Shown: positions 1-36,648 of the stretch, piece after piece
Layout of the letters: each line of letters starts with the position of its first letter
Position numbering within the stretch: position 1 is the first letter of the stretch
NCBI GenBank assembly: GCA_019136515.1
Contig: JAGVUB010000142.1
Location: forward strand, 1-64,000
Direction: 5' to 3'
DNA: 64,000 nucleotides
Source of the DNA: Verrucomicrobiota bacterium
Lineage (GTDB): Bacteria > Verrucomicrobiota > Verrucomicrobiia > Opitutales > Opitutaceae
Made by a program: the position numbers and the translations under genes
Notes under the pieces: generated by a model
What the model saw: only the letters and a program-made list of their open reading frames with translations
The model's database searches: none
Told to the model about the DNA's origin: nothing

Positions 1-54
1 TGCTCCTTTCGACGCACGGGCCGTTCCGGTGTTCATTCTTCACCCACATTTTCT

Positions 55-1145
55 CCAACGGGCGCAGCCCGTTGGTTCAGCAGCCTGGTGGACGAAGTCC
101 GACAGGCTGCTAGCCGGTGGAGCTCCGGCCAGTCTCAATAAGGATATTGAGATTGCATCCGCCTCGCGCTCCAATTCATGTCGGCAGCCAACGCTGCCTC
201 CAGGGGTGAGGCCATCGCATCGAACCTCGATGCTCACACCCCACCCCGGCGTGATGTAACTTTCGTAAGTTACATCACGCTTTCCGAAATCTTACAGATT
301 TCGGCCTGCGCCCACCCGGCGCCTGATGGCTCCGTGTGAACGCACAAGACTACGTTCGCACGGAGACCAATAAATTGGCCTCCGTTCGAACATGCCTAAC
401 GGCACCCCTTCGGGGTTGTCTTGGTCAACTTACGCAACTTTCAGTTGCTCCAGTCGACTCCGGTTCCACGCCCACCTTGGGCGTGTCTTCCGGGTTGCCG
501 CACCACGCTTGACAGCGTGCGTCAACCCCCGCCTCCGGCAGGGTCCCCCGGCCCCTAGCGGGGCTGAGCCAGTCTCAATAAGACTGGCTCCGGACTCACC
601 CGTCACCTCCCTGCGCGAAGCTCCGGGAGGCTTCCGGTCGATCCTAGCCGACCGGTGGAGCCTTCGGCCATCTCCCACCGATGCCCGGGACGTCCCCGGG
701 ACATCCAGGAACGCCTTGTTCCTGGCGTTCCGAAGGTCCGCTTCCGATCCAGTTCCGAGGTCAACTACGGTCAAACTGGCGGCAACATCATCTTCGACGT
801 CGTTGCCGCTCGGTCTTCTTTCTCCGGTGCTTCTTTCGAGACACTCTCCGCCGCATACTCCGGTATGAGACAAAGGCTCGGCCCGTTCGCCACCACGGTG
901 AGCGGGCCGAGCGCTTCGGATTGTTCAAGATGCTTCATGGCGGTCCCGCGCAACCCGCCCCCGCCTCCCACACTTTGGGAGGAGCCTCCTCCGCATACCT
1001 GAGACACAAGACATGATAGGGCCCTTGACACCGTGCGTCCAGCCCACGGACGGCGTCGATCTCCTAACCTCCGGAAGTCCGTAAGCTGCTGGTGACAATC
1101 GTCACCGAGCGCGTCACCAAACCTGTCACCAAATTGGAAACCAAT
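55..1145. repeat. Array of about thirty heterogeneous short inverted repeats
   Basis: No convincing coding frame is present. Almost every 20-40 bases the sequence folds on itself. Clear examples are 55-63/67-75 (9 bp), 79-87/103-111 (9 bp), 133-140/145-152 (8 bp), 217-223/227-233 (7 bp), 249-262/267-280 (14 bp perfect), 284-292/296-304 (9 bp), 331-342/353-364 (12 bp, one T:G), 467-474/478-485 (8 bp), 566-575/581-590 (10 bp), 634-640/649-655 (7 bp), 705-712/718-725 (8 bp), 876-885/903-912 (10 bp), 964-970/976-982 (7 bp), 1091-1096/1101-1106 (6 bp) and 1133-1137/1141-1145 (5 bp). Loops are mostly 3-10 nt. The stems are not copies of each other, but some words recur: GCCAGTCTCAATAAG at 128-142 and 568-582, and a CTAGCCG...GGTGGAGC module near 110 and 645. 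It could be a large structured RNA, a protein-binding DNA array, or debris of palindromic elements. I cannot identify it. Confidence 0.75.
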
Positions 1146-1212: not shown

Positions 1213-1749
1213 ATGGAAACTGACTCGCGATACCGCCTTACCATCACACTAGACGAGGCTCACGTGCCCGCGTTCGAGCAACAGCTCAACGCGTCCGCAT
1301 CCGGGACCACGAAGTCGGCCTTTGCGACGGCCCTCGTTGTCCGTGCCCTTAACACGGAGGCTCTCGAGACCAAGCCTTCAACTCCACCCATGGACCGGAC
1401 CGGCATCAAAGCTGACTCTTTTACTCAAGATCCCGGGGCCAAAGTCGTCCGGGCTGTGATCGGCACAGGCCTCACCGTCGTCGTGCTCACCCTCGCCGGC
1501 GCCTGGGGACTGTTCAGCCTTCACCATCGCCTTCACCCGGACCTTCGTCCGGATCTCGCATCCATCCGCCAGACGATCGAAGCTCGCCCGGACCTTGCGG
1601 CCATCCGTCAAGCTATCGAGGCCCGGCCGGACATATCGACCAAGGTTGTCGATCTCACCAAACGAATAGACGTCCAAGACAAAGCTCTCGTTGCGATCAT
1701 GGACAGACTTCAGCCATCGAAAGCGCAGACGAAGTCGGCCAGCCCGTAA
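1213..1749 (+). CDS. Single-pass membrane protein with 13-residue tandem repeats, unknown function
   Basis: I do not recognise a family. The protein has about 178 residues. It has a polar N-terminal third beginning METDSRYRL, one hydrophobic segment around residues 80-102 (GLTVVVLTLAGAWGLFSL), then a helical tail. The tail contains about two copies of a 13-residue unit (RPDLASIRQTIEA, RPDLAAIRQAIEA) and the start of a third. The tail is likely a coiled coil, possibly for oligomerisation or for sensing. ATG at 1213 is chosen over an in-frame TTG at 1177 because the extra residues are unremarkable. The gene lies just downstream of the inverted-repeat array, with several GTCACC words at 1101-1129 in its upstream region. 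The coding status is fairly likely because the frame is open and has a coherent membrane-plus-repeat architecture. Confidence 0.6.
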   Translation: METDSRYRLTITLDEAHVPAFEQQLNASASGTTKSAFATALVVRALNTEALETKPSTPPMDRTGIKADSFTQDPGAKVVRAVIGTGLTVVVLTLAGAWGLFSLHHRLHPDLRPDLASIRQTIEARPDLAAIRQAIEARPDISTKVVDLTKRIDVQDKALVAIMDRLQPSKAQTKSASP

Positions 1750-2447: not shown

Positions 2448-4079
2448 TTACTTGGCCGGCACCTGTCCCGAATTGGCTCCTTCTGAGATTTTGCCATGAT
2501 CGCCATCCACATTGAGGACCCCCAGATCATCCAGCAACAATACGAACGCATCAAGGCGATCCTGCATCCAAGCCGGCTCAAGTGGGGGTTGTGCTTTCAT
2601 CGCGGTCGTGCGCACTATACCACTGTCGTCTAGCGTGAAGCGAAGCCGTTGAACGACGCCATCAAACCTTCCCAACGCGATGCGAAGGTGTTGCGCGAAG
2701 ACCAGCTGGGAAAACATATCTTCTAGAAGCCGGCTTAAGGGACACCTTGATCGCTCTTCAAGCCATGGCGAAAACCACGAAAGCGAGAGACGATCACGAC
2801 CGTCCCACTGCGTCTGGGGATGACTGGCTAATACGGGTATCGATGAGTAGGTGCGTAGGTGCCACCGAGCGAGCATCGTCAGGGCACGGCATATCGGAGG
2901 GCGCTCGTCCGTCGGTTCAATCCAATCGTAGCTGGCCTGGGTCCAACTCACCGTATTCTGCCATGCCGTTGAAAGAGCATCGGTATTCTTTACTGGCTTT
3001 AGGCCCGCGGCTTTTGCCTCTGCATGAACGATCGCTTCGAAGGTTGCCGACTGCCCCGGATAGGCCTTGGTCACCACGCCGACAGATTTATCCACCACTT
3101 GGCGGATCGAGTGGCAGCCATCTATGAGCGCTTGCTCGAAACAATGCATGAACATTTCCAAGCAGTAGCGCTGATATTGGCGGTGAGTGAAGATTTCCCA
3201 TCGCTCGCGCTGCCGGATGATCTCAGGCCCCTTGAGCACCAGACCGCGTTTGCGAGTTGTTCCAGTGTGCCAGACCGCACGCAGATCATCAGTTGTTAAG
3301 TCCGAATCCTGGCCGATCGTTTGCAGTATCAGATTTGCGGTGAGGGTCCTCGGGTGACTGGCCCCCTCTTGGGCGGCGGGGAGCAGTTTCCGGATGAACG
3401 CCTGTTTTATCTTTCTCGGGGAGTCGCGGAAAAATGAAGGATGAAACCCATTCAATCCTAGGTCATCGATCATGGCCTCCGTGACGGGTTCGGGACTAAT
3501 ATTGAATTTCGGATAGTATTTGGACTCCCGCAGCGAGGCATCCACATACTCAGCGATAAGCGTCGTATCGGCATCATCGCTGGTGCCATGTATGCGAGTC
3601 AGGGTCTCGCCTTTGGCCTTGGCAAATCCTGCGTGCAGACCAAGCGATCGCAGTGACGGGCCGTATAACGGCGCCGCGAAGACGCTGGTCGCATCCGTTC
3701 GCTTCGCCGCGTCGAAGCCGAGCTTCGCTGGCAAGAGCAGTTTCTGATCGACGCCAATTCTTCGATTAGGTGGACCGTAGCGATTATGCGCCGGCGAGTT
3801 GTCACGCTGGCTGTGCGACATCGCAACTTCAACGGTCTCTTGGAAGCGAAAGTAGTTCGACTCCGTGTAGTCCTTCGCGTCTGGGCACAGGTTGCGGAAT
3901 TTCCATGGGATCCACGTTGCCAAACAGAAGAATCCGAAATCGCTCGTGGCATTATTGATTCCGGGTATCAGGTCCTGGGTCAGGATGCGGAGATTGACAA
4001 TCCTCAGGCCGAGGAAGTCGATGCCCCCGCCTTTGGGAGCAAAGTTCTTTGTCGTGAATGGTTGGACTCCGTAGGGCAT
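2448..4079 (-). CDS. Unknown 543-residue protein paired with a PLD-type protein
   Basis: I do not recognise the family. The N-terminus (IDFLGLRIVNLR, then FFCLATWIPWKF at about 50) recalls the opening of uncharacterised proteins that begin with a 'wave through an intact region' motif beside PLD genes in defence loci, but I cannot place it in a named family. The rest is soluble, alpha-helical and without an obvious catalytic signature. The start ATG (4079) directly follows the stop codon of the PLD gene, so the two are almost certainly co-translated and probably act together. It is the last gene of the minus-strand defence run. Confidence 0.75.
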   Translation of the reverse strand: MPYGVQPFTTKNFAPKGGGIDFLGLRIVNLRILTQDLIPGINNATSDFGFFCLATWIPWKFRNLCPDAKDYTESNYFRFQETVEVAMSHSQRDNSPAHNRYGPPNRRIGVDQKLLLPAKLGFDAAKRTDATSVFAAPLYGPSLRSLGLHAGFAKAKGETLTRIHGTSDDADTTLIAEYVDASLRESKYYPKFNISPEPVTEAMIDDLGLNGFHPSFFRDSPRKIKQAFIRKLLPAAQEGASHPRTLTANLILQTIGQDSDLTTDDLRAVWHTGTTRKRGLVLKGPEIIRQRERWEIFTHRQYQRYCLEMFMHCFEQALIDGCHSIRQVVDKSVGVVTKAYPGQSATFEAIVHAEAKAAGLKPVKNTDALSTAWQNTVSWTQASYDWIEPTDERPPICRALTMLARWHLRTYSSIPVLASHPQTQWDGRDRLSLSWFSPWLEERSRCPLSRLLEDMFSQLVFAQHLRIALGRFDGVVQRLRFTLDDSGIVRTTAMKAQPPLEPAWMQDRLDAFVLLLDDLGVLNVDGDHGKISEGANSGQVPAK

Positions 4080-6728
4080 CTACTCGAAATAGCTGTCGTG
4101 CAGTTGATCGGGCACCATCACCGAAAGGCAGCGCGGGCAGATTACAGGTTTCATGCTCGCGAGCACCCGAAAATCCGCCTGTTTAATGCCGTGGTTTTCA
4201 CACCCTGAAACCGCGCACCTTTGGGTATAGGGACTGACTGAGACGAAAGTGGCCCCTTTCGGCCCCTTGAGGCACTTTGCAGCCAATCGTTCGATGTTAG
4301 GAATGTCTCTTGAATCATGTGACGGGCATGATTGGGGGAGGTGATTGATCTGATCCAATATCTTGTATCCCGGAGTGGCACTCCAAGAGTCCTGCAGAAT
4401 GCAATCGAGCGCCGCCTGTGCTTTCGATACTGTGTCGATGTCGTCTTCCTTGCCATCACTCATGATGTGCACGGCGGTTTCGACAACCGAGTTACGGGTG
4501 TCTGAAGCCAGTTGGTCCGGGACCCCAAAAGTGATGCGGAAGGTGAGCCACAGGCGGCGTGGAAACGTCTTCTGAAGAGTTTCCACGGCTTGGGCTTTTG
4601 CGGCTACGAACAGCGCCAAGCCTAAGATGAGCAAGCGCTCATCAAAGCTTAGGTGGAAGCGATTTACCGCATCATATACTATTGGCGGGAATGTGCTGTC
4701 GGGATACGGGCAGCTGGAAGGAGGGGTGTAGTTTTGCCCCTGTCTTCTATCTCCGAAGATTGTGCGAAGGAATCTATTGGTGAGATCCCAGACGCTGGGC
4801 AGTGCGAGCTGGGGCGCGGTGCGTCTGACAGAACGCCGGACACTCAGAAGCACCAAGAAGGATGCCATCACCACCCGGAGCAGCTTGCTGGCTCGTGTCT
4901 GATTTATGATCGTTGTGGTTAAGCGGCTTTCCATCCGGCTGAAGCGCTCATCGGCTAGGTCCCATCGCATTTGGGCTGCTTTGGCTGCGGCTGCTTTCGC
5001 ATCAAGATCTTCAGCGTCTTCCGATTCGTCATCAACTACGGGCCCCGGTTTCTTACCTGTAGTTGAGTGCCCCTTTGTCTCGTGTCGCAGAAGTGTGTCG
5101 AGGATACGGTCGAACCACCCGACATTGCCGCCTACCGTCCCCGCGGACTGCGAATGCCCTGTGGACATGATCTGAGGCGGCCACACTGGAACACGGTCTG
5201 GCGCTGGCTTCCGTGTGGGCTTGGTCTTCTGGCCCTCTTGCTTGGCGTTCCCGTCGGAGTCGGGCTTCGGGTCCTCATCTTCCCATACCTGGTCAATCAG
5301 CGAGAACGCCGCGCTTAGGTCCGCAGCGCTGGGCAAGCCCTCTTGCGCCAGCATGGCCATGAGGCCTCTCCACGCATTGCGTTGACCAGGCTCCGATGTG
5401 AGAATGGCGGTTTCATCGATGAACGCGACTCCCTCTACAGGTTCGCCCATCGCGGTGGTCGCCCGGATTGAAATCGTGGCGCAGGAGGATCCGGGGTCGA
5501 TTGCGTGCGTGAAGCTCGCCCAAGGTATGCTGGTTGTGCCGCTCCGCTCGAACAGCGAGTCCAACTGGCGTTCGAAGGATTGCGGTCCAGAGGCCCAAAC
5601 AAGCGTGACTGATCTCAGGGGCAGATGCTCGGCCTTCTCGGAAGTGCAGAGTCTCAAAGCATGTCCTTGATTTGAAGCCCACAGATTTAGCCATCGATTT
5701 TCACGCTTCTCGTGTTGCTGGACAAAGGGCTGAAATCCTTGAAGCCGACCGACCGATTTGAAGTAGAAGGCGTGGTCTGCCTCCTCCACTTGGCGCAGGA
5801 TGCCGGCCTCGATATTGCTGGCGCCAAGGGCCATCTCCGTTGCGTTGACACTACCACAAAAGAGCCAGTGTCCTGCCTTTGTGGTGAAGCCGTATAGCTT
5901 GAAATGCGGGAATGCGCTCTTCTCTTTGTGCAGCTTTAGTTGAAGAAGTCTTGCTTCGGGAACGGGCGGTTTCCCGGTCGGAAGGTCGTAGGTTCCTTTT
6001 TCTACTGGAGCCGGGAATACGTTAATTTGATCAGCCTGAAGCGTCGATTGGGCTAACTGGATGCCTTTCCATGCGCCTCCGAAATAGGGAGCGCAGATAT
6101 CCAGTGAATCGACCTTCCCAATGACAGATTTCCATTGGCTGGGGAACGGCCCGTCGAACGAAGACTGGAAGAATATCCGCCGGCGCGGCTCAGGTGATTG
6201 GCTGGCTTCGAACTGCTGGATCGCTCCCGCGGTATCCGCCAGCAGCTTCACTGCAGGAATGTGCGCGTGGTCGAACTGCGCCCATAGCGCAATCAGTCCT
6301 TCGACAAAGCCGCGCACCTCAGAAACCAGGCCGCGGAAACCTTGGTTCCGCGAAATCCTGAAGCCGTCAAACAGCTCCAGGTTTCCGATGAAGCCAGATT
6401 GTGTGAGATTGCCACTCCCGCAGAGGACGGCCAGTTCCTCGTCTCCCAACATGATCCAGACCTTGGCGTGAAAGCTGTGCCCATGCGGAGCCAGCATTAC
6501 CGAATAGCTCCTAGTTGCCGCCTGCAACGCCGCCGCCTCCTCTGTGCTCCGCATGAATCCCAGCTGGTCGCATAGTATCACGCACCCCTTGAGTTTGTCC
6601 TGATCCACCTGAGGCAGCACGACAGACTCGAAGAAGCTCATGCTGGCCGTGTAGGTCGTTCCAATAAGATACCTCGGCGCGAACAGCCGAAAGAACTCCG
6701 ACAGCTTTATGGCTTCAAGGTGTTCCAC
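4080..6728 (-). CDS. Phospholipase-D-superfamily protein with two HKD motifs, a hydrophobic segment and a C-terminal zinc-ribbon-like end
   Basis: An 882-residue protein. HKD motif 1 is H87-x-K89 with G-S-x-N at 104-107 (FHAKVW, CGSGNLT). HKD motif 2 is H275-x-K277 with GSVN at 292-295. Two such halves form one active site in PLD nucleases and phospholipases. A hydrophobic stretch (LLRVVMASFLVLLSV) lies near residue 640. The C-terminus has Cys pairs (CAVSGC, CPRC) that could bind zinc. The start is a GTG at 6728, 16 bases after the metallopeptidase stop. PLD-fold nucleases occur in several defence systems (for example DrmC of DISARM), but the neighbours here are not DISARM genes. Role inferred: nuclease or helper of an anti-phage module with the next gene. 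Confidence 0.8.
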   Translation of the reverse strand: MEHLEAIKLSEFFRLFAPRYLIGTTYTASMSFFESVVLPQVDQDKLKGCVILCDQLGFMRSTEEAAALQAATRSYSVMLAPHGHSFHAKVWIMLGDEELAVLCGSGNLTQSGFIGNLELFDGFRISRNQGFRGLVSEVRGFVEGLIALWAQFDHAHIPAVKLLADTAGAIQQFEASQSPEPRRRIFFQSSFDGPFPSQWKSVIGKVDSLDICAPYFGGAWKGIQLAQSTLQADQINVFPAPVEKGTYDLPTGKPPVPEARLLQLKLHKEKSAFPHFKLYGFTTKAGHWLFCGSVNATEMALGASNIEAGILRQVEEADHAFYFKSVGRLQGFQPFVQQHEKRENRWLNLWASNQGHALRLCTSEKAEHLPLRSVTLVWASGPQSFERQLDSLFERSGTTSIPWASFTHAIDPGSSCATISIRATTAMGEPVEGVAFIDETAILTSEPGQRNAWRGLMAMLAQEGLPSAADLSAAFSLIDQVWEDEDPKPDSDGNAKQEGQKTKPTRKPAPDRVPVWPPQIMSTGHSQSAGTVGGNVGWFDRILDTLLRHETKGHSTTGKKPGPVVDDESEDAEDLDAKAAAAKAAQMRWDLADERFSRMESRLTTTIINQTRASKLLRVVMASFLVLLSVRRSVRRTAPQLALPSVWDLTNRFLRTIFGDRRQGQNYTPPSSCPYPDSTFPPIVYDAVNRFHLSFDERLLILGLALFVAAKAQAVETLQKTFPRRLWLTFRITFGVPDQLASDTRNSVVETAVHIMSDGKEDDIDTVSKAQAALDCILQDSWSATPGYKILDQINHLPQSCPSHDSRDIPNIERLAAKCLKGPKGATFVSVSPYTQRCAVSGCENHGIKQADFRVLASMKPVICPRCLSVMVPDQLHDSYFE

Positions 6729-36572: not shown

Positions 36573-36648
36573 GGGGTCGTAGCTCAGTTGGAAGAGCGCG
36601 TCGTTCGCAACGACGAGGTCAGGGGTTCGATCCCCCTCGGCTCCACCA
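36573..36648 (+). tRNA. tRNA-Ala (anticodon CGC)
   Basis: A full cloverleaf. The acceptor is GGGGTCG paired with CGGCTCC, the D-arm is AGCTCAGTTGGAAGAGC, and the anticodon stem CGTCG/CGACG encloses TTCGCAA with anticodon CGC, reading GCG. The T-arm GGGGTTCGATCCCC and encoded CCA follow. Confidence 0.95.

Follow-up and report, generated by a model that had tools for sequence, protein, structure and literature searches.

Hairpins at the edge of a probably acquired island

The 64-kb stretch of DNA analyzed here (hereafter the window), which forms the start of a 104-kb contig in a 4.1 Mb genome of 202 contigs, opens with a gene-free region in which short, mutually unlike hairpins follow one another. 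Whether such a region encodes a large structured RNA, serves as a scaffold for a protein or is the substrate of a mobile element is the question that it raises. The block is not explained by any family tested, and a folded minus strand is modestly favored. The features discussed below are the following.

1-113, minus strand: end of an IS1182-family insertion sequence, with its transposase expected to run leftwards, past the contig end
114-985, minus strand (favored, predicted): non-coding, single-copy hairpin block with some 25 unlike hairpins, from fold and stem statistics
133-152, no strand assigned: hairpin TCTCAATA/TATTGAGA, with its left arm within the word GCCAGTCTCAATAAG (128-142)
249-280, no strand assigned: longest perfect hairpin from the stem search, 14 bp with a 4-nt loop
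345-423, minus strand: multibranch junction, from prediction alone, with outer stem 418-423/345-350
508-529, plus strand: internal near-repeat with 1024-1045, 19 of 22 bases identical
566-590, no strand assigned: hairpin GAGCCAGTCT/AGACTGGCTC, with the same 15-nt word (568-582) and another right arm
652-670, plus strand: internal near-repeat with 114-131 (CCGGTGGAGC..CGGCCA), E 0.74
1013-1041, minus strand: weak promoter-like site TGGACG-17-TATCAT directed into the block, one in 2 kb with 0.4 expected by shuffling
1213-1749, plus strand: neighboring gene of a 178-residue orphan protein with one hydrophobic stretch (predicted, by reading) and a short repeat

The first 22 kb of the window have a G+C content of 55-61%, as compared with 64-74% further on, and carry type I restriction-modification and CBASS genes. 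Because of this lower G+C and these defense genes, they likely form an acquired island. The initial annotation had placed the hairpins beside a repeat-bearing protein in a defense island, and this location stands: the small neighboring protein contains the short repeat RPDLASIRQ/RPDLAAIRQ, and the searches made returned no relatives for it. Further into the island, an adjacent gene pair on the minus strand (2448-6728), adjoining the restriction genes, encodes proteins of 543 residues, without any family match, and 882 residues, with weak PLD-like and ZacB-like matches. Between block and neighbor, the end of a plus-strand frame (1083-1210, VTERVTKPVTKLE) is similar to the C-terminus of a tyrosine-recombinase-like gene located beside a tRNA in genome G342. 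The two have VTKPVT.LE in common in frame, a word that is not widespread, and this frame end could be a remnant or a chance likeness.

The insertion-sequence end

The structured block was first thought to start at position 55. Instead, bases 1-113 represent one end of a multicopy element, located at the contig end: they, or their outer 60 bases, are repeated at ~37 other places with 88-100% identity, nearly all of which are contig ends. The insertion sequence measures ~1.6 kb, and in a complete copy (L025:2163-3786) the encoded protein combines DUF772 and DDE_Tnp_1_6 domains. Multicopy terminal inverted repeats flanking a DUF772/DDE transposase assign bases 1-113, and these only, to what we take to be the IS1182 family, a name derived from this domain pair. 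The two hairpins at 55-75 and 79-111 are the insertion sequence's own, and the CTAG at 110-113 represents its closing bases; all the copies read end with CTAG, except two with CGAG. Among the ~37 copies (L009-L053), the ends (55-111 in the window) carry a hairpin whose stem varies while its pairing is kept, with variants CCAACGGGC/GCCCGTTGG, CAAACTGGC/GCCAGTTTG and CAAACAGGC/GCCTGTTTG, the loop being GCA or GTA. An effect of the insertion site as the source of the block's hairpins was rejected, as the flanks of the 37 other insertion-sequence ends are not structured to the same extent (z +2.3 to -3.8). A continuation of the block on another contig was rejected as well: none of the right-end flanks is similar to it, and a mate contig was not found.

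Extent and strength of the pairing signal

The structured block covers ~870 bases, from 114 to about 985. The right limit of 1145 initially proposed is not borne out, the z-scores of 150-nt windows being at background from about 901, a drop beyond which a 7-bp stem is still located at 964-982. Perfect stems of at least 6 bp with 3-5 nt loops reach 13.8 per kb in 114-985 versus 1.73 per kb over 462 kb of this genome, and the first 1.1 kb contain 11 short-loop stems of at least 7 bp versus 0-4 in each other 1.1-kb slice of the window. The minimum free energy of 1-1145 yields z-scores of -11.3 (plus) and -14.3 (minus) against dinucleotide shuffles, while the control stretch 1200-2300 yields +0.2 and +0.5. 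Segment 114-813 returns about -14 on both strands, and the 150-nt windows give their strongest signal, with z down to -10, between 150 and 450. A fold energy far below that of dinucleotide shuffles, one general mark of a structured RNA, is thus a property of the block, and the excess of hairpins, claimed at the outset, is real and, with the insertion-sequence end left out, sharper than it first seemed. The count of "about thirty" inverted repeats agrees with the centroid helices, of which 32 are listed between 110 and 1190, but not with the perfect stems of at least 5 bp with 3-5 nt loops, only 16 of which lie in 114-985.

No comparable place was found by folding in the ~1.5 Mb sampled out of 4.1 Mb, and uniqueness by BLAST extends to the whole assembly. 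The other hairpin-dense places in this sample exhibit z-scores of -0 to -8, and those that were read are either a CRISPR-like array or dispersed REP-like repeats built from a few kinds of hairpin. The REP-like hairpins (L069:3000-3600, L068:12500-13000, L154:3080-3230, L091:18400-19000) combine a constant loop (GGA, GTGA, GCA or GAA) with varied paired stems, some of them following GTAG. The array at L123:19000-19900 looks, by reading, like a CRISPR with repeat GCTTCAATGGGGCCGCGCTCCGAGGAGCGCGGAGAC.

Individual hairpins and reused words

The perfect 14-bp stem at 249-262/267-280 is present as described earlier. The predicted junction at 345-423 encloses three hairpins (404-416, 394-403, and 352-393). 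The initial annotation had also reported that the same words enter different pairings, and indeed GCCAGTCTCAATAAG occurs at 128-142 and 568-582 as the left arm of different stems, with right arms that are unrelated to each other and each complementary to part of the word. In the near-repeat of 508-529 and 1024-1045, each differing base is able to pair locally (by reading). The ungapped core of the near-repeat of 652-670 and 114-131 lies within the range of shuffles; ahead of the CCGGTGGAGC copy at 652, additional bases make a stem complete. Scores of 16 and 15 were obtained for the two top internal direct repeats, while the best per shuffle (n = 60) averages 11.7 with a maximum of 15. Reused words are predicted both by fold-back copying and by selection for pairing.

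The exclusion of three known classes by the initial annotation can be confirmed. The only direct repeat family is the 15-mer, found twice at a distance of 440 bases, with no regular identical repeats as in a CRISPR; the block is single-copy in its own genome and does not have the many similar copies of a REP family; and its hairpins are unlike one another, which is not the case in a tandem repeat. Other candidates were rejected: a diverged ~520-bp tandem duplication, the halves aligning over short words only; a CsrB-like sponge or a tRNA array, in view of the lack of a consistent loop motif and of tRNAs; and an integron attC array, none being seen in the block by reading.

Search for relatives

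BLASTN returned no homologue of the block in its own genome, in 57 relatives, in 388 genomes of the phylum, or in phage and plasmid records. Three matches were rejected as relatives: that in genome G019 lies in or at the end of a protein gene (an aldehyde dehydrogenase, by reading), that in G485 in or at the end of an oxidoreductase-like frame, and that in G342 in or at the end of the tyrosine-recombinase-like frame beside a tRNA, a likeness that may be due to chance. Scans of GTDB genomes and IMG/VR, run frame by frame with the block, reported no protein relative in any frame. Rfam 15, including the large ornate RNAs, returned nothing at gathering score in 1-1300, its only match in the whole window being a tRNA (36573-36645). 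Covariance models of 305-424 and 500-592 identified no relative in 388 phylum genomes and 252 family genomes, respectively, each model being built from one sequence and run with strict filters that remote relatives could escape.

A motif shared with phages

The 15-mer GCCAGTCTCAATAAG alone is found in 44 viral stretches, a number that may be near chance, while six IMG/VR contigs contain two core copies in a span of 34 bases, versus ~0.2 by chance (an estimate for an assumed 50 Gb). Copies of CAGTCTCAATAAG, some direct and some inverted, form clusters in phage intergenic regions (L225:3916-4200, L212:4870-5150, L217:1-70, L226:60-210, L232:6270-6380, L233, and L234). They are located directly ahead of terminase genes in L225 and L212 and of the terminase large subunit gene in L217, and away from terminase genes in other contigs. 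The clusters of L225 (z -5 to -7) and L232 (z -3 to -7) are themselves structured, and the variants paired in the 133-152 hairpin (..TCTCAATAAGG and ..TCTCAATATC) are adjacent in L225 and L212. Those phages have the motif alone in common with the block, and none of its other hairpins. A text search for the motif in the literature returned only unrelated primers and the like. The same motif is carried by a ~145-bp short repeat of a congeneric genome, G001 (L236:1473-1625 and about nine other places), the CTAG-ended inverted repeats of which are similar to those of the insertion sequence.

Which strand folds

With G-U pairs forbidden and both strands treated alike, the small symmetric internal loops of the plus-strand fold contain 16 G.U/G.A mismatches on the minus strand versus 5 on the plus strand, and the minus-strand fold gives a similar ratio, although the block is C-rich on the plus strand, which by itself slightly favors such pairs on minus. 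Loops with G first and A last account for 5 of 16 on the minus strand and 0 of 16 on the plus strand (background 6-8%), and the promoter-like site at 1041-1013 is the only one in 2 kb. As these signals all agree, each of them being modest, the minus strand is modestly favored as the folded one; the assignment of a proposed RNA to this strand is supported, but weakly. G.T and G.A pairs and G..A loops are favorable in single-stranded DNA too, and the strand signals do not separate the latter from RNA.

Comparison with known systems

GOLLD and ROOL RNAs are known from phages and mobile elements. Like them and OLE, the block is long and non-coding, with dense predicted structure and multibranch parts (PMC12286853), but it has no Rfam match to any of them and short unlike hairpins dominate it. 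REP palindromes of the GTAG and CGTC families, one GTAG family of which has been published from O. terrae, a member of the bacterial family supposed in the initial annotation, also place short-loop palindromes outside genes (PMC3733652), whereas the block's hairpins are mutually unlike and single-copy, and a common tag is not seen. The palindromes of Streptomyces telomeres are packed as tightly (PMC4513846), but the block is internal to its contig and adjoins an insertion sequence. Hairpins made by template switching exhibit the same perfect reverse-complement arms beside reused words (PMC8794818), the known cases being single stems recognized against an ancestor, while here a whole block is present without one.

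Weighing the explanations

We tentatively prefer, at somewhat less than an even chance, the reading of the block as a large structured RNA of the acquired defense island, truncated by the insertion sequence. The block would be the DNA for one such RNA of this lower-GC island, transcribed leftwards from the minus strand with a start at about 1006. The transcript would form some 25 short hairpins, part of them within a multibranch junction, and the folded RNA may be the working part, e.g. by serving the island as a scaffold or by binding protein. Because an IS1182-family element is now at position 113, the 3' end of the RNA would be cut or lie beyond the contig. The pairing excess, the minus-strand signals, the lack of a protein-coding relative in any frame, and the low-GC defense island argue for this reading, while the lack of any homologue in the searches made, the modest strand tests, the failure to find a terminator for the transcript, and the missing left part of the block argue against it.

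The hairpins might instead act as single-stranded DNA, in a region through which a mobile element is replicated, transferred or packaged and to which proteins specific for folded or palindromic DNA bind. The acquired look of the island and the clusters of the two-hairpin word in phage intergenic regions, directly ahead of terminase genes in three contigs and structured in two, point in this direction; this explanation is nonetheless unlikely, since that word is all that is shared with those phages, some clusters lie away from terminase genes, and the searches made recognized no replication or relaxase gene near the block. Fold-back template switching, repeated as DNA was synthesized, might also have generated the hairpins, which would then be devoid of present function. 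This reading is quite unlikely: one event is known to make a perfect stem (PMC8794818), and both the single left arm with two right arms complementary to parts of it and the internal repeat scores (16 and 15 versus a shuffled mean of 11.7) are in line with it, but known events yield single stems, the strand bias in mismatches and loops is not predicted, and other stretches of the window, copied by the same DNA polymerases, exhibit no excess. Lastly, a diverged cluster of REP-like palindromes could have been brought with the island from another genome. Although this genome is rich in scattered hairpins that combine a constant loop with varied stems, in places as clusters, this origin is very improbable, as the genome's own clusters reach z of about -2 to -8 only, while the hairpins of the block occur once in this genome and lack matches in 388 genomes of the phylum, with varying loops and no recurring GTAG or CGTC tag (by reading).

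A proposal that combines these elements, a new class of large multi-hairpin RNA or folded-DNA element on a mobile defense island, with the phage-shared motif CAGTCTCAATAAG and stems renewed by template switching, is doubtful at present. If the block is transcribed, it would add an unclassified large structured RNA to those of mobile elements, beside restriction and CBASS genes. If template switching produced its stems, the use of a single left arm with two different right arms would be an unusually clear record of how hairpins originate.
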